Shown piece after piece: positions 2,639 to 62,119 of a stretch of 64,000 bases of DNA. A model generated the notes under the pieces. The model saw only the letters and a list, made by a program, of their open reading frames with translations, made no database searches and was not told the origin of the DNA. Source of the stretch: Altibacter sp. HG106 (lineage in GTDB: Bacteria; Bacteroidota; Bacteroidia; Flavobacteriales; Flavobacteriaceae); the NCBI RefSeq assembly GCF_028561755.1, contig NZ_JAQQTD010000004.1, positions 62,001-126,000 on the forward strand, in the 5' to 3' direction. Each line of letters begins with the position of its first letter. The first letter of the stretch is position 1. Made by a program: the position numbers and the translations under genes.

Positions 2639-3070
2639 TTATGAACAGGCGATCTTTTCAACTCTTCTTAGGTGTCGCCCGCCTTCAAAATCGGTGTTTA
2701 AAAAGACTTTAACCATATCTAATGCCTGTGGTTCACTGGTAAAACGAGCAGGAATACTTAACACATTAGCATCGTTATGTTCCCGAGCTAAAATGGCAAT
2801 TTCTTTGGTCCAACACAAGGCCGAACGTACCTTTTGATGTTTATTGGCCGTCATGGAAGCTCCGTTACCGCTTCCGCAGATAATAATTCCAAAATCAACC
2901 GAATTTTTTGCTACCGCTTCGGCTACCGGATGTACGAAATCAGGATAATCAACACTGTCATTAGCGTTGGTCCCTACATTGGTTACCTCGTGGCCTTCCC
3001 CTTCCAAATAATCGACAATAGTGTTTTTGTAATCCGTCCCGGCATGATCATTTCCGATGGCTATTTTCAT
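2639..3070 (-). CDS. rpiB: Ribose-5-phosphate isomerase B
   Basis: Interconverts ribose-5-phosphate and ribulose-5-phosphate in the pentose phosphate pathway. At 143 aa it has the normal RpiB length. The N-terminus KIAIGNDHAGTDYK and the central ICGSGNGASMTANK carry the active-site Cys and the phosphate-binding loop, and NVLSIPARF is the usual C-terminal signature. It is first in a leftward three-gene group, with a TAnnTTTG-type -7 box shortly upstream. RpiB and LacA-type isomerases are related, but without lac genes RpiB is the sensible call. Confidence 0.93.
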   Translation of the reverse strand: MKIAIGNDHAGTDYKNTIVDYLEGEGHEVTNVGTNANDSVDYPDFVHPVAEAVAKNSVDFGIIICGSGNGASMTANKHQKVRSALCWTKEIAILAREHNDANVLSIPARFTSEPQALDMVKVFLNTDFEGGRHLRRVEKIACS

Positions 3071-3086
3071 AATGATTTGTTTTCTA

Positions 3087-3094
3087 CAAATATA
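3087..3094 (-). promoter_or_regulatory. -7 box for rpiB
   Basis: On the minus strand this reads TATATTTG, a perfect match to the Bacteroidota TAnnTTTG -7 element, 17 nt before the rpiB start. No clear TTG at -33 was found. Confidence 0.55.
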
Positions 3095-3099
3095 CGGGA

Positions 3100-3615
3100 A
3101 GGGGGCCTTCTGTAGAAATTTCCTCTTAACTTTTACCCTGTACGACAGTCTTTCTAAAAAAGTAGCGAGTTAACAATGATCTAAACTTTAGTTAACAAAA
3201 GAAAGGTTTGCTGTTAGCAACTTTACCAAAACATTATTTGGAGATTACCATAGTATTTATCATATGATGAAATCTTAATGGTATCCAAAATTAAAGTCGC
3301 TGAATTCTACATCATTTTTCAACTTCCAAAATTCAGTTTCCAACAAAAAAAGAAACTAAAATTTTCAAAAATATCCGTGAAAAAATGGTTTTCAACAGTT
3401 GTTGATAGCAATTTTAAATCCCTTGGAATTCAAGGGGAGAGATTCTTAAATATATGTTAATTACCTGTTGCTAAAATCCTCTTTTTGAAAATAAAAATAA
3501 TACGTAAAAAAAGTTATACCGCTTATTAACATCTCATCATAAGCATCATTTTTTATTTAAAATTTTAAAAAGAAAAAGAAGTATTATACTATTTGTTGAT
3601 AACTGGAAATTCTCG
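3100..3615. other. Gene-free AT-rich region, candidate oriC
   Basis: This gene-free stretch holds several 9-mers close to the DnaA box (TTATCCACA and variants): TTTTCAACA at 3389-3397, TGTTGATAG at 3400-3408 (these two form an inverted pair), and TGTTGATAA at 3594-3602. Weaker copies occur near 3317 (TTTTCAACT) and 3336 (TTTCCAACA). A block of nearly pure A/T at about 3548-3590 could be an unwinding element. Transcription diverges around it: leftward genes to the left and mainly rightward genes to the right. That AT-rich strings also occur by chance is the main caveat; the DnaA box used by this lineage is not known to me with certainty. Confidence 0.45.
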
Positions 3616-3855
3616 TTACACGATACGAAGATGATCGCTCTGATCGAGCCCTTCAATGATGGAAGTAGCTTTGGAAACGTCGCTTTCGTGGACTTTCAGG
3701 CGAATGCCGCCGACGGCGTTACTGTGAAAAGGCAGGACGCCTATCATGGTTTCATTTTGAAAGACATGTGGAATTTCCTCCTGTTCTAAGAGCAACCGGA
3801 GGACAGCGTATTCGCTGGGATAGGTAAAGGTGGCTATCGTGACAAACTGTTCCAA
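3616..3855 (-). CDS. DUF2007 family protein
   Basis: Small cytosolic protein of 79 aa matching the DUF2007 (putative signal-transducing) family. It has the typical opening FVTIATFTYPSEYAVLRLLLEQEEIP, a central GIRLKV strand, and an ending IIEG. The fold is a ferredoxin-like GlnB-type domain; the function is unknown. It is transcribed away from rnr and ends at the candidate oriC. No signal peptide or TM segment. Confidence 0.82.
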   Translation of the reverse strand: MEQFVTIATFTYPSEYAVLRLLLEQEEIPHVFQNETMIGVLPFHSNAVGGIRLKVHESDVSKATSIIEGLDQSDHLRIV

Positions 3856-3952
3856 AGTAAGCTAACTAGCATATTACGAATGTATTAAATCTTTACAAAA
3901 TAAGAAGAGTGATTGCCTTATAAAACGTATTTTTACCGCTTAACCATACTAT

Positions 3953-6163
3953 ATGCCGAAACGAAAAAAGAGAAGAGGAAAACAAAAACAGAATCAAGCC
4001 CTTACAGAACAATTACTTACCGTCTTACGTAACCATGAAAACAATCCCCTTAATTACAAGCAGATTGCTGCACAACTAGGTGTCAATGATCCCAGTGCTC
4101 GTAATCATATCACAAAGAAGCTTAAGAAACTTAAGGAAAAAGGGACCATCAACGAAGTAAGCCGCGGAAAGTACCTGTGGGTACCGTCCAAAGATTACCA
4201 TACCGGAGTGGTAGATATGACCAGCCGCGGGCAGGCCTACATTGTCGTAGATGGCCTAGAACAAGATATCTTTGTCAATCAAAAGAATACTAATCGAGCC
4301 TTGCATGGCGACGTGGTGGAAGTCTATATTTTCAAACGTAGAAAACAGGGCAAGCTCGAAGGAGAAATTACCAAGGTGCTAGAACGGAAACGCACTGAGT
4401 TTGTAGGTACTATCGAAATTTCTGAACGTTTTGCTTTTGTGCAATGTAATGGTTACAACATGCCTACCGATATTTTTGTTCCAAAGAGTCAGATAGGAAA
4501 TGCCAATAACGGTGATAAGGTACTTGTAAAAATGGAAGGCTGGGAGGCGCATTCCGATTCTCCTGTGGGCAGCATTATCAAAGTCCTGGGAAAACCTGGA
4601 GAACACCATACCGAAATTCATGCGATTTTAGCGCAATACGGACTCCCATACGAATTTCCGAAAGAGGTAGAAGATTTTGCTAATAATCTCGATACCAGAA
4701 TTCACGAAAAAGAAATCAAGAAGCGTCGAGATATGCGAGAGGTTCTTACCTTCACTATCGATCCAAAAGATGCAAAGGATTTTGACGATGCGCTTTCTTT
4801 TGAAACCTTGGAGAACGGAAATTATGAAATAGGAATTCATATTGCTGATGTATCTCACTACCTACAGCCCGGAAATGTGTTAGATGATGAAGCCTTTGAG
4901 CGGGCCACGTCGGTATATTTGGTAGATCGAGTAGTACCGATGCTTCCGGAAATTTTATCGAATAATGCGTGTTCGCTTCGCCCCAATGAAGAAAAATATA
5001 CGTTCTCTGCTGTTTTTGAAATGAACAAAAAAGCGGAAGTGGTGAATCAATGGTTCGGAAGAACGGTCACGTATAGCGACGCTCGCTTTGCCTACGAAGA
5101 AGCTCAGGCTGTCATAGAACACGGTAGTGCTGAAAATGCAATAGTTCCGAAGGATATTGCCTTAAACGGAAAGGAGTATACCGTGCAAACCCCAATTGCT
5201 GAAGCGATTCTTACCTTAGATGAACTAGCCAAAAAATTGCGCACCAAGCGTATGCGTCAAGGGGCCATTTCATTTGATAAAGTAGAAGTGAAGTTCATTC
5301 TTGATGAACACAACGAACCGGAAGGTGTGTACTTCAAGGAAAGCAAGGATGCTAATAAGCTCATTGAAGAGTTTATGCTACTAGCCAATAGAAGTGTTGC
5401 CGAATTTATCGGAAAACAAAGTCCGAAGAAAACCTTTGTCTACCGCGTACACGACGAGCCGGATGATGAAAAGATTGCGTCGCTTGAAAAGTTTGTGAAG
5501 CGATTTGGATACTCTATGAATACGCGCGACCGTAAGTCGACTGCGGCTTCCTTGAACAAGTTGTTAAGCGATGTGGTCGGAAAAAAAGAACAAAATTTGG
5601 TAGATACGCTTGCCATCCGAAGCATGAGCAAGGCCGTATACACAACACATAACATTGGGCATTACGGACTCTCATTCGATTATTACACCCACTTTACATC
5701 ACCTATTCGACGGTATCCCGATGTGATGGTGCATCGCTTACTACAGCATTATTTAGACGGAAAGGATTCAGTAAAAGAAGATCCAATAGAAGACAAATGT
5801 GGCCACAGCAGCGAAATGGAAAACCTTGCCGCTAATGCAGAGCGGGATAGTATCAAGTACATGCAGGTGAAATATATGCAGGACCACCAAGATCAGGAAT
5901 TTCTTGGGGTGATTTCTGGAGTGACCGAATGGGGAATCTATGTGGAGATCATTTCGAACAAATGCGAAGGCATGGTGCGACTCCAAGATTTGAAAGATGA
6001 TCACTATGTATTTGATAAAGAGGAATATGCCGTGATCGGGCAACGAACCCATCATCGCTATACCTTGGGCGACGAGGTCTATGTAAAAGTAAAACAAGCC
6101 GATTTAGTGAGGAAGCATTTGGACTTTTTGATGTTAGGACATCGAAAAGACCTCGAAGACTAA
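3953..6163 (+). CDS. rnr: Ribonuclease R
   Basis: Processive 3'-5' exoribonuclease of the RNB family that degrades structured RNA and acts in rRNA and mRNA quality control. The 736 residues hold a basic N-terminus, a winged-helix region (about 15-70), cold-shock-type domains (about 75-230), the RNB catalytic domain from about 262 and an S1 domain (about 645-730). The catalytic aspartates are in IDPKDAKDFDDA near residues 269-280, and the conserved HFTSPIRRYPDVMVHRLL is present. It is the first gene of the rightward half of the window and sits about 100 bp from the divergent DUF2007 gene. Confidence 0.97.
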   Translation: MPKRKKRRGKQKQNQALTEQLLTVLRNHENNPLNYKQIAAQLGVNDPSARNHITKKLKKLKEKGTINEVSRGKYLWVPSKDYHTGVVDMTSRGQAYIVVDGLEQDIFVNQKNTNRALHGDVVEVYIFKRRKQGKLEGEITKVLERKRTEFVGTIEISERFAFVQCNGYNMPTDIFVPKSQIGNANNGDKVLVKMEGWEAHSDSPVGSIIKVLGKPGEHHTEIHAILAQYGLPYEFPKEVEDFANNLDTRIHEKEIKKRRDMREVLTFTIDPKDAKDFDDALSFETLENGNYEIGIHIADVSHYLQPGNVLDDEAFERATSVYLVDRVVPMLPEILSNNACSLRPNEEKYTFSAVFEMNKKAEVVNQWFGRTVTYSDARFAYEEAQAVIEHGSAENAIVPKDIALNGKEYTVQTPIAEAILTLDELAKKLRTKRMRQGAISFDKVEVKFILDEHNEPEGVYFKESKDANKLIEEFMLLANRSVAEFIGKQSPKKTFVYRVHDEPDDEKIASLEKFVKRFGYSMNTRDRKSTAASLNKLLSDVVGKKEQNLVDTLAIRSMSKAVYTTHNIGHYGLSFDYYTHFTSPIRRYPDVMVHRLLQHYLDGKDSVKEDPIEDKCGHSSEMENLAANAERDSIKYMQVKYMQDHQDQEFLGVISGVTEWGIYVEIISNKCEGMVRLQDLKDDHYVFDKEEYAVIGQRTHHRYTLGDEVYVKVKQADLVRKHLDFLMLGHRKDLED

Positions 6164-17767: not shown

Positions 17768-19639
17768 ATGTTTGAGAAAGAGTATGATGTAATTGTAGTG
17801 GGGGCGGGTCATGCGGGCTCAGAAGCGGCCGCAGCTGCAGCCAATTTGGGCTCTAAAACCCTATTGATTACGATGAACCTTCAAAACATAGCACAAATGT
17901 CTTGCAATCCTGCCATGGGAGGAATTGCCAAGGGACAAATTGTGCGTGAAATTGATGCGTTGGGTGGATATAGCGGGATTGTTTCAGACAAATCCGCGAT
18001 ACAATTCAAGATGCTTAATAAATCTAAAGGACCTGCCATGTGGAGTCCGAGGGTTCAGAGTGATCGAATGCGCTTCGCAGAAACCTGGCGTGAAATGTTA
18101 GAACAAACCCCAAACCTCGATTTTTATCAAGAGATGGTTTCAGGCTTATTGATTGAAGGCGACCGTGTGGTGGGGGTAAAAACCTCCTTGGGGTTGTCAG
18201 TGCGTTCGAAAGCGGTGGTGTTAACAAATGGTACTTTTTTAAACGGACTCATTCATATTGGTGAAAAACAATTCGGCGGGGGTCGTGCGGGTGAACGTGC
18301 CGCCACAGGTATCACCAAAGAATTAGAGGCGTTGGGGTTTGATTCTGGACGGATGAAAACAGGTACGCCGCCAAGAGTAGATGGGCGGTCGTTGGATTTT
18401 AGCAAGATGACAATCCAACCAGGAGATGAGGAGCCTCAGAAGTTTTCATATTTAGAAAGTACAAAACCATTAACCCATCAACGGGCTTGTCATATGTCCT
18501 ATACAAGTTTGCAGGTGCATGAGCTATTACGAGAAGGTTTTGATCGCTCGCCAATGTTTAATGGCGCTATTCAAAGTGTCGGGCCGAGATATTGCCCTTC
18601 CATCGAGGATAAGATACACCGTTTTGCAGATAAGGACAGACATCAATTATTCGTAGAACCCGAAGGTTGGAATACAGTAGAGTATTACATCAACGGATTT
18701 TCAACCTCGCTACCGGAAGATGTCCAGTTTCGTGCCCTAAAAGAATGTGATGGTTTTCAGAATGTAAAGTTTTTTCGGCCCGGGTATGCGATCGAATATG
18801 ATTATTTTCCGCCCACGCAATTAGCGCATACGCTAGAAACAAAATTAGTCAGTGGCCTATATTTCGCTGGGCAGATCAACGGTACCACTGGATACGAAGA
18901 AGCCGCCTCTCAAGGATTGATGGCGGGTATAAGCGCGCATTTAAAGATTAGAGGTAAAGACCCATTTACGCTGCAACGGAATGAAGCCTATATTGGCGTG
19001 TTAATTGACGACTTAATCACAAAAGGAACGGAAGAGCCCTATAGAATGTTTACCTCGAGAGCAGAATACCGAACCTTACTTCGACAGGACAATGCTGATT
19101 TTCGATTGACGCCTAAATCGTTTGACATCGGATTGGCGTCAGAAAACCGACTCCATCAAATGGAGCAGAAAAAGGAGCAGTCGGATAAATTAGTGGCGTT
19201 CTTCAAAAACACGAGCTATCAAGTTGCCGAAGCAAATGCTATTTTAGAGGCCAATAATTCGGCTGCGGTTCAGCAGAATGATAAGATGTTCAAACTATTC
19301 TCTCGGCCCGAGATAGACATGGATGATATGTTACAGTTGGAGCAGGTGAAGCGCTTTGTGGAAAAAGAAAAGTTCAGCACCGAGGAACTTCAGCAGGCAG
19401 AAATACAAATTAAGTATGCCGGATATATTGAAAAGGAAAAGAGCAACGCCGACAAGTTAAATCGTTTAGAAGGAATTCGAATTCCGGATAATTTTGACTA
19501 CAATAAGCTCAAGTCTCTCTCTTTTGAAGCACGTGAAAAACTGAAGGAAATTCGCCCTACAAGCATTTCTCAAGCCAGTAGGATTAGCGGGGTCTCTCCC
19601 AATGACATTTCCGTCATGCTGGTATATATGGGCCGTTAG
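17768..19639 (+). CDS. mnmG: tRNA uridine-5-carboxymethylaminomethyl modification enzyme MnmG
   Basis: FAD-dependent enzyme that with MnmE modifies U34 of certain tRNAs, 623 aa, normal length (also called GidA). The FAD-binding GAGHAGSEAAAAAANLG is at the N-terminus, followed by the signature CNPAMGGIAKGQIVREIDALGG. GQINGTTGYEEAASQGLMAG is near residue 368-387, and the C-terminal helical domain ends in ISVMLVYMGR. It sits between two parS sites, a placement common near origins. No mnmE or rsmG adjoins. It has a strong promoter match. Confidence 0.97.
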   Translation: MFEKEYDVIVVGAGHAGSEAAAAAANLGSKTLLITMNLQNIAQMSCNPAMGGIAKGQIVREIDALGGYSGIVSDKSAIQFKMLNKSKGPAMWSPRVQSDRMRFAETWREMLEQTPNLDFYQEMVSGLLIEGDRVVGVKTSLGLSVRSKAVVLTNGTFLNGLIHIGEKQFGGGRAGERAATGITKELEALGFDSGRMKTGTPPRVDGRSLDFSKMTIQPGDEEPQKFSYLESTKPLTHQRACHMSYTSLQVHELLREGFDRSPMFNGAIQSVGPRYCPSIEDKIHRFADKDRHQLFVEPEGWNTVEYYINGFSTSLPEDVQFRALKECDGFQNVKFFRPGYAIEYDYFPPTQLAHTLETKLVSGLYFAGQINGTTGYEEAASQGLMAGISAHLKIRGKDPFTLQRNEAYIGVLIDDLITKGTEEPYRMFTSRAEYRTLLRQDNADFRLTPKSFDIGLASENRLHQMEQKKEQSDKLVAFFKNTSYQVAEANAILEANNSAAVQQNDKMFKLFSRPEIDMDDMLQLEQVKRFVEKEKFSTEELQQAEIQIKYAGYIEKEKSNADKLNRLEGIRIPDNFDYNKLKSLSFEAREKLKEIRPTSISQASRISGVSPNDISVMLVYMGR

Positions 19640-60754: not shown

Positions 60755-61894
60755 ATGCAAAAAAAAGGAATGAAAGGATTATTCGCACTATTGCTTCTTG
60801 CTTTGTCTGTTTCTAACACATTTGCAGGAGCCCCTTCTCAAGAAGGAAATAGCAAAGAAGATACCAAGGCAGAGATCAAAGAATACATTGATCATCACTT
60901 ACAAGATTCTCATGATTTTAATTTATATGCATACACCGGAGAAGACGGAGAAACGCACCATGTAGGATTTCCATTGCCGGTAATCTTATGGGATGATGGC
61001 ATTCAATTCTTTATGTCTTCAGCATTTCATCACGGAGAAGAAGTGGTGGAATCGAACGGAAATTACTACCGACTTTACCACAGCAAAATTTACAAAACGG
61101 ACGCGGAAGGTACCTTGACCTACGATGCCGATCATGGAGATCACCCTACGAATGTACGGCCGTTAGACCTCTCCATTACGAAAAGTGTGGTGATGATGCT
61201 GGTGACGGGAATTCTTTTGATTTTACTCTTCAGAGGATTGGCGAAAAGCTATCAAAAAAATGAAGGTATCGCACGTGGTATTGGTCGCTTTTTTGAGCCT
61301 ATCGTGATCTACATTCGCGACGATATTGCGATCGCAAACATCGGCGAGCAGAAGTATAAGCGCTACATGCCGTTTCTACTTACTACCTTTTTCTTTATTT
61401 GGTTCTTGAACATGTTTGGGTTGACCCCCCTTGGAGTAAACGTTACCGGAAACATTGCGGTGACTACGGCCTTAGCGGTATTGGTGTTCTTGCTAACGAA
61501 CTTTACCGGAACCAAAGATTACTGGAAACACATTTTCGATCCATTAGGCGACGGAATGCCTTGGATCGGTAAGATCTTTATTTATATCATCCTTGTTCCT
61601 ATTGAAATTTTAGGAATGTTTATCAAGCCTTTTGCGCTGCTTATTCGTTTGTACGCAAACATGACGGCGGGTCACGTAGTATTGATGAGCTTGATAGGAT
61701 TGATTTTTATTTTTAAAAGCTGGATCGGCGGACCTTTATCGTTCGGCCTTTCTTTCGCGATCTCACTTATTGAAGTGTTGGTGGCATTATTACAGGCGTA
61801 CATCTTTACGATGTTAGCCGCGTTGTATTTTGGATTTGCTAGCGAGACCCATGACCATGCTGAAGAGCACGACGGAGAAATACAGCATTTATAA
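60755..61894 (+). CDS. atpB: F-type ATP synthase subunit a
   Basis: The proton-channel subunit of F0, 379 aa by the chosen start. An unusual N-terminal signal peptide (MQKKGMKGLFALLLLALSVSNTFA) and a periplasmic region of about 100 residues (DHHLQDSHDFNLYAYTGEDGETHHVGFPL, key parts HHL and HVGFPLP) are followed by six TM helices. The channel Arg is in ALLIRLYANMTAGHVV. Such extended N-termini are known in Bacteroidota. The ATG five codons downstream (MKGLFA) is also possible; a longer in-frame start would lie in the promoter. Confidence 0.93.
   Translation: MQKKGMKGLFALLLLALSVSNTFAGAPSQEGNSKEDTKAEIKEYIDHHLQDSHDFNLYAYTGEDGETHHVGFPLPVILWDDGIQFFMSSAFHHGEEVVESNGNYYRLYHSKIYKTDAEGTLTYDADHGDHPTNVRPLDLSITKSVVMMLVTGILLILLFRGLAKSYQKNEGIARGIGRFFEPIVIYIRDDIAIANIGEQKYKRYMPFLLTTFFFIWFLNMFGLTPLGVNVTGNIAVTTALAVLVFLLTNFTGTKDYWKHIFDPLGDGMPWIGKIFIYIILVPIEILGMFIKPFALLIRLYANMTAGHVVLMSLIGLIFIFKSWIGGPLSFGLSFAISLIEVLVALLQAYIFTMLAALYFGFASETHDHAEEHDGEIQHL

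Positions 61895-62119
<225 letters not shown>

Follow-up and report, generated by a model that had tools for sequence, protein, structure and literature searches.

A conserved core between rpiB and rnr as the probable chromosomal replication origin of Altibacter sp. HG106 and its relatives

In the Bacteroidetes, the chromosomal replication origin (oriC) is commonly located far from the dnaA gene, as set out in the accessible part of PMC4755523. Origins have been predicted with Ori-Finder/DoriC for Prevotella intermedia (PMC4755523) and Elizabethkingia meningoseptica (PMC8994065). Two flavobacterial papers place oriC at or next to mnmG (PMC11278836, PMC12843772); these calls were made with Ori-Finder 2022 and are said, in the accessible parts of both papers, to match the GC skew, although in PMC11278836 the text and a figure legend are in conflict as to whether mnmG or leuB marks oriC. 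The closest described unwinding module is the basal unwinding system (BUS) of the oriC of Bacillus subtilis, which consists of DnaA-boxes, a spacer and DnaA-trios; the criteria with which such systems were sought include a middle adenine in each trio and a spacer no longer than 16 nt (PMC8287927). A word search of the main text of that survey, as accessible, returned no instance of “Bacteroid”. An origin linked to rpiB was not found in a search of the open-access literature, and DoriC may list one; among papers containing both rpiB and origin terms, none concerned Bacteroidota, judged by their listing. A literature search for the oriC of Cytophaga hutchinsonii was unproductive; in one of the papers listed, the term occurs in a plasmid table.

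The DNA analysed here (the window) is a stretch of 64,000 nt from Altibacter sp. HG106 (NZ_JAQQTD010000004.1, positions 62,001–126,000, forward strand), and coordinates below refer to this window. A reading of the sequence alone (the sequence-only reading) had proposed a candidate oriC between rpiB and rnr, and this proposal is supported by an excess of box-like sites, by a conserved core and by the position of the GC-skew switch in relatives. The region 3389–3602, with its core at 3507–3602, is in all likelihood the chromosomal replication origin. It is very probably a further oriC of the DnaA type, i.e., an element of a known kind and an expected feature, with a similar core in many relatives.

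The rpiB–rnr locus and its DnaA-box-like sites

The features of the locus, from left to right, are:

2639–3070, minus strand: rpiB (ribose-5-phosphate isomerase B; PF02502, E 4.4e-58), the left neighbour, reading away from the putative origin
3316–3345, plus strand: two weak outer box-like sites, TTTTCAACT (3316) and TTTCCAACA (3337), assigned by sequence
3389–3408, both orientations: outer inverted pair of DnaA-box-like 9-mers, TTTTCAACA / TGTTGATAG, assigned by sequence
3466–3474, minus strand: outer weak box-like site TTAGCAACA, assigned by sequence and identical in the sister species
3514–3522, plus strand: distal 9-mer of the left tandem pair, TTATACCGC, weakly box-like (pattern TTAT.CC in the order-wide alignment)
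3523–3531, plus strand: proximal DnaA-box-like 9-mer TTATTAACA, the left core box, directly abutting the distal 9-mer
3532–3535, plus strand: 4-nt spacer, rather G/C-rich in relatives
3536–3550, plus strand: five A-T-N triplets, ATC ATA AGC ATC ATT (complement 3'-TAN-5'), DnaA-trio-like
3551–3593, no strand: A/T-rich stretch, presumed DNA-unwinding element from its composition; A/T-rich in aligned relatives too
3594–3602, minus strand: right core DnaA box TTATCAACA (TGTTGATAA on the plus strand), assigned by sequence and conserved spacing
3616–3855, minus strand: small DUF2007 open reading frame with a TTG start (PF09413, E 8.6e-8 for 3616–3858), between the core and rnr
3953–6163, plus strand: rnr (ribonuclease R; RNB domain, E 1.4e-112), the right neighbour, reading away from the putative origin

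The start codon of rpiB lies at 3070 on the minus strand. The gap that follows had been described as 545 bp of gene-free DNA, which is correct for 3071–3615; the interval 3071–3952 to which the description was attached does span one gene, because the gap is followed by the small DUF2007 open reading frame. This frame starts at 3855, its stop codon ends at 3616, and it points at the core, such that its transcription would be head-on to the presumed rightward fork. On the rpiB side of the gap, upstream of that gene, a block of about 55 bases (3208–3270) is near-identical in the sister species, the surrounding spacer having diverged; this block is perhaps the rpiB promoter or a further part of the origin.

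The three 9-mers named in the sequence-only reading, TTTTCAACA (3389–3397), TGTTGATAG (3400–3408) and TGTTGATAA (3594–3602), are all located exactly where it had put them, and the weaker copies that it saw near 3317 and 3336 were found as TTTTCAACT at 3316 and TTTCCAACA at 3337. In the sister species, the last base of the first of these two weak sites has changed and the second is identical, and the position of the outer pair is occupied by TTATTAACA / TGTTGATAG. The nearly pure A/T run reported at 3548–3590 contains four G/C in 43 bases; a content this low or lower occurs in 10 of the 63,957 windows of 43 bases scanned, seven of them in the region of 3548–3590 and three at 61886–61888, and the presumed unwinding element (3551–3593) overlaps the first of these two places, the most A/T-rich in the window at this length. 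Three parts of the core had been overlooked: TTATACCGC at 3514–3522, TTATTAACA at 3523–3531 and the triplet tract at 3536–3550.

The box-like sites were compared with 500 dinucleotide shuffles of 3071–3616. The excess of 9-mers that the sequence-only reading had called for is present at two mismatches or fewer from TTATCCACA (7 sites versus 2.14 in shuffles; 0.002 of 500). The motif TTWTCMACA, which was picked post hoc with the boxes already seen, has two exact matches (0.06 in shuffles) and ten at one mismatch or fewer (versus 1.59; 0 of 500). The boxes could in principle be chance matches in A/T-rich spacer DNA, a reading to which it lends some weight that just one 9-mer lies within one mismatch of TTATCCACA in 3071–3616 (1 versus 0.15 expected; 0.132 of 500 shuffles, not significant). 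Conservation of the sites across the family and the near-fixed spacing of the core boxes, both documented below, speak strongly against chance, which was rejected on the conservation and is left with a negligible probability.

Across the own genome, exact TTATCMACA is about as frequent as its reversed control (83 matches versus 77), and the rpiB–rnr spacer contains only one. Pairs of exact matches at most 300 bp apart occur at three other places, G000:C18:446437–446578, G000:C24:20852–20974 and G000:C19:415190–415483 (G000 being the own genome; start positions 446437/446570, 20852/20966 and 415190/415475, respectively), the rpiB–rnr element not being among them, which counts against it. These three places may serve DnaA titration or regulation, or may have arisen by chance.

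Conservation of the core within and beyond the family

When the gap and its flanks were used to search 60 genomes (the own genome included), matches were obtained in 52, and in 17 of those 52 the noncoding patch at about 3490–3605 gave a separate match, with 69–82% identity. An iterated profile search then detected the core in 25 of 30 fetched loci, again with the own locus included. In the aligned family elements there is a DnaA box at the right end, which in several relatives reads TGTGGATAA where the window has TGTTGATAA. From 24 of these 25 loci (L027 was left out as weak), a profile based on sequence only and centred on 3507–3602 was built (R1; threshold E <= 0.01).

R1 has matches in 137 of the 149 family genomes sampled, of which the 24 training genomes match by construction; leaving these aside, it matches 113 of 125. 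For good assemblies the figure is 121 of 125, and of the 12 genomes out of 149 in which an R1 match was missing, four are good assemblies. The core is mostly found at one place per genome: 105 of the 137 genomes have a single match. In the remaining 32, with two or three matches each, many of the second matches listed correspond to the first place read on the opposite strand; some lie elsewhere with weak E-values, and the weakest of the R1 matches may be chance. The own genome, itself a training sequence, has one R1 place (E 2.5e-16), which is also matched on the reverse strand (7.6e-5), the next unrelated match being at 0.954.

A pattern scan of genomes yielded at least 118 loci with the core. 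The titles obtained for 80 of these are mostly of Flavobacteriaceae (Flavobacterium, Winogradskyella, Maribacter, Zobellia and others); of the rest, some are given only as Bacteroidia, Bacteroidetes, Bacteroidota or Flavobacteriales, one is a Chryseobacterium and one a Paludibacter. Among the matches listed, 86 of 118 loci have both rpiB and rnr as neighbours, 15 have rpiB only, 13 have rnr only and four have neither. In 21 of the 28 listed loci with a single neighbour, the sequence ends within about 0.75 kb on the side where the second gene would be expected; the other seven extend for more than 1.3 kb on that side and do not contain it. The neighbours have the same orientation throughout these listed loci: relative to the element, all 101 rpiB genes found lie on the minus strand and all 99 rnr genes on the plus strand.

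The spacing of the two core boxes was determined for 112 loci among the matches listed, i.e., the 118 minus seven, plus the window. Excluded were L151, L195 and L218, which lack rpiB or rnr and were taken as chance matches; L186, L208 and L223, which are cut by contig ends; and, by eye, L200, in which no right box was seen and which counts against a fixed spacing. In 109 of these 112 listed loci, the right box faces the left module at a start-to-start distance of 70–72 from TATTAACA. The textbook box TGTGGATAA is found at the position of the right core box in 12 of the 112; in the sister species, this box is TGTTGAAAA.

Outside the family, R1 has matches, mostly weak, in 32 genomes of a 119-genome sample of the order. 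Of 18 of these 32 stretches that were fetched, 12 have rpiB at 0.38–0.44 kb (families f3, f5, f7, f14 and f15), six have neither rpiB nor rnr, and rnr was matched in 0 of 18. A second profile (R2) was built from 13 of the 18 stretches, chosen by eye, with ten loci of the pattern scan and the window; the five stretches left out include L300, which has rpiB adjoining and a poor tract. At E <= 0.01, R2 has matches in 42 of 119 genomes of the order, 14 of which are training genomes and match by construction, and in 19 of 119 genomes of the class. Nine further genomes of the order were checked for rpiB, and six of them have it within 0.5 kb of the match.

In 16 class genomes outside the order, a weak match lies within 0.5 kb of rpiB in three (G267, G281 and G301), adjacencies that are hardly due to chance. 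In the other 13 the match is not beside rpiB; these include one genome without an rpiB match as well as the two best scores, at G292:C7:102301–102377 and G327:C15:28528–28607, which are either moved origins or chance. From the neighbourhoods sampled, it looks as if the adjacency of rpiB and the core is older than the family and the adjacency of rnr is a feature of the family.

These neighbourhoods bear on the possibility that the core is a conserved promoter or operator of rpiB or rnr, at which DnaA acts as a transcription factor, and is no origin. The core does sit between divergent genes, and the second conserved block (about 3208–3270), nearer rpiB, looks regulatory. However, in one relative (G023) the core is separated from rpiB by 37 kb, rnr still having a match within 0.5 kb, and the other families of the order often have rpiB without rnr (12 and 0 of 18, respectively); thus, the core strictly follows neither gene. 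Moreover, it is close to the genome-wide skew switch. A purely transcriptional role is therefore considered extremely improbable, and an origin remains the preferred reading.

Which parts of the core are best kept can be seen when 24 elements from across the order are aligned. Six other families contribute 13 of these, which were picked by eye, and the column counts given here therefore lean towards the motif. The best-kept part is the left arm. In its distal 9-mer, the columns are T in 22, T in 24, A in 17 and T in 23 of the 24 sequences, followed by C in 19 and C in 15; in the left core box, the final bases A, C and A are kept in 24, 24 and 23. The counterparts of the left core box in relatives read, e.g., TTTTCAACA, CTATTCACA or TTATCAACA, hence its DnaA-box-like look. 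In the triplet tract, the first base is A in 24, 24, 24, 24 and 22 of 24 sequences for triplets one to five, and the second base is T in 24, 22, 7, 18 and 19. In family f7 (L290, L294, L298, L299 and L302), the core continues at its right end into ATGTTATTAAGA, perhaps a gene start, so that the region of the right box may overlap a start codon there.

GC skew and the positions of dnaA and mnmG

GC skew was sampled in six single-contig relatives (the first six by handle of 22 single-contig genomes with an R1 match), each as 20 stretches of 20 kb that were denser near the element, and it therefore resolves tens of kb. A two-level fit placed the switch, relative to the element, as follows:

G014: -32 to -12 kb, R2 0.81
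G021: -47 to -17 kb, R2 0.64
G023: +8 to +28 kb, R2 0.46 (noisy)
G025: -4 to +11 kb, R2 0.53
G032: +12 to +32 kb, R2 0.74
G063: -8 to +2 kb, R2 0.87

A skew minimum elsewhere would have told against the sequence-only reading. As far as this sampling can tell, the switch from minus to plus is at most 50 kb from the element in all six relatives, one of them noisy; the element falls inside the best-fit interval in two of the six and lies 8–17 kb outside its near edge in the other four. In the noisy case, G023, the skew is positive in the stretches at 26 and 47 kb on the left side of the core and slightly negative in the 13.6 kb to its right, the skew suiting the core at large scale and being noisy nearby. 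In G014, the 20 kb to the left of the core are slightly positive (+0.025).

The own genome is a draft of 25 contigs, in which 65 kb to the left of the element were sampled in four stretches and the right side in 18. To the left, the raw skew ranges from -0.049 to +0.021 and is negative in two of four stretches, and at fourfold sites it is negative in all four. Of the 18 stretches to the right, 17 have positive raw skew and 11 are positive at fourfold sites, where the first 85 kb are near zero. The skew of the own draft genome agrees only partly with an origin at the element.

The dnaA gene of the own genome (G000:C21:347347, E 3.8e-61) is on another contig, and in the six relatives it is 0.9–1.9 Mb from the element by the shorter way round, which bears out the statement that dnaA is not adjacent. 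An origin at dnaA was considered and rejected: the surrounding 15 kb contain one exact box of those tested, and the distance of 0.9–1.9 Mb in the six relatives separates dnaA from the skew switch as well as from the element.

A closer competitor is mnmG, which occupies 17768–19639 in the window, 14 kb from the core. The origin could be situated at this gene (about 17.8–19.6 kb), in which case the rpiB–rnr element would be a regulatory or titration site to which DnaA binds. In support of this, mnmG and the core are 14 kb apart in the own genome and 16–39 kb apart in five of the six relatives (the contig of G025 being taken as circular), and the two flavobacterial papers cited above place oriC at or next to it (PMC11278836, PMC12843772). 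The sign of the skew between the two candidate positions can help to distinguish them. Across seven genomes, ten stretches lie between the element and mnmG, one of them being the right part (13.6 kb) of the G023 stretch that straddles the core; the sign is that of an origin at the element in nine of ten by raw skew and in eight of ten at fourfold sites, the smallest raw agreement being -0.006 (G032). The sign of an mnmG origin is seen at fourfold sites in G014 (-0.064) and, in G023, over the 13.6 kb that adjoin the core on its right (raw -0.020, fourfold -0.061). In G023, however, mnmG is 285 kb from the core, and the two other sampled stretches between them are positive. Furthermore, of the tested boxes, just one (TTTTCCACA at 19357) is near mnmG in the window. 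An origin at mnmG was rejected on the sign of the skew between the two positions and is judged very improbable.

The nearness of mnmG to the core is perhaps the reason why prediction programs name mnmG as an origin marker. With the origin at the rpiB–rnr core, this suggests that published origin calls in the family that are based on mnmG may be off by tens of kb. R1, in comparison, is a short profile that points to a candidate oriC in 137 of the 149 sampled family genomes, drafts included, and needs neither skew plots nor a rule of thumb based on dnaA or mnmG. Possible uses are the estimation of growth rates from read depth, the rotation of assemblies and the construction of replicating plasmids.

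A possible unwinding module and comparison with known origins

The oriC features present here are a box cluster above chance (at two mismatches), an A/T-rich region beside the boxes (by composition), a nearby skew switch (in the six relatives, at a resolution of tens of kb), mostly one place per genome with conservation in relatives, and a dnaA gene in the genome. We infer DnaA binding, melting, helicase loading and activity of the origin in Altibacter sp. HG106, which might proceed as follows. DnaA would bind the outer boxes as well as both core boxes, the latter pointing towards each other over the A/T-rich stretch. A filament of DnaA-ATP would extend from the left tandem boxes across the spacer onto the ATN triplets, where it would grip the complementary 3'-TAN-5' strand and melt 3551–3593. 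Helicases would be loaded at the melted stretch, and two forks would depart, the leftward one past rpiB and the rightward one past rnr.

A broader proposal, which we offer tentatively and hold to be possible rather than probable, is that one origin core defined by its sequence is shared across the Flavobacteriales and probably more of the Bacteroidia, often beside rpiB, and that it is a two-sided unwinding module with DnaA nucleating from both sides. In its parts, this reading has the tandem boxes and the ATN tract facing an opposite DnaA box at 70–72 bp (in Flavobacteriaceae) across a putative shared melting region. Nucleation from two sides is conceivable because the core is near-palindromic, the profile also matching its own reverse strand.

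The left arm and the triplets appear to resemble a BUS. By the box criterion for a BUS, which allows two mismatches at most and a distance of up to 16 nt from the triplets, TTATTAACA counts as a box, with two mismatches and a spacer of 4. In the left tract of the window at this spacer, the middle bases are T, T, G, T and T, and the longest trio run at any spacer is three (at spacer 1); the right side of the window has a trio-like run of seven. Trio-like runs of three or more occur on the right in 61 and on the left in 52 of the 112 loci among the matches listed. In these 112 listed loci, the longest trio run at up to 16 nt from either box does not exceed that in shuffles (right 3.38 versus 3.20, left 3.09 versus 3.16), and a canonical DnaA-trio run as a statistical signal was rejected for both sides. 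The likeness to the BUS is kept as a resemblance, since it is the period-3 columns that are conserved and not the run counts. A period-3 tract beside tandem boxes would bring the idea of the DnaA-trio into the phylum Bacteroidota.

As far as the accessible parts of the papers describe them, the predicted origins of Prevotella and Elizabethkingia (PMC4755523, PMC8994065) and the rpiB–rnr element have in common a cluster of DnaA boxes, a position far from dnaA and a location at the skew switch, and for Elizabethkingia A/T-rich unwinding elements are stated (PMC8994065), like the one presumed at the rpiB–rnr core. These origins are predictions from single genomes, unlike the rpiB–rnr core. The origins published at mnmG, as given in the accessible parts of PMC11278836 and PMC12843772, are from the same family and from two genomes outside the set compared here; the core described here is at rpiB–rnr, with mnmG at 14–39 kb from it in six of the seven genomes analysed.

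The comparison with the BUS of B. subtilis, as laid out in the accessible text of PMC8287927, shows both likeness and difference. Both combine tandem boxes in head-to-tail order (separated by 0 nt in the window) with a short spacer, a tract with a period of three and then A/T-rich DNA, and the middle base of the core triplets is mostly T when read on the box strand and A on the complement. The core triplets are ATN (3'-TAN-5'), whereas the BUS consensus is 3'-GAT-5'; the third core triplet, unlike in the BUS, is often degenerate; and the core spacer is 4 nt, in contrast to a peak of 10–13 in the BUS survey. Finally, the flavobacterial core differs from the BUS in having a second box beyond the A/T-rich stretch, 70–72 bp away and oriented towards the module, so that the two-sided reading of this core, tentative as it is, contrasts with the one-sided type of B. 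subtilis.
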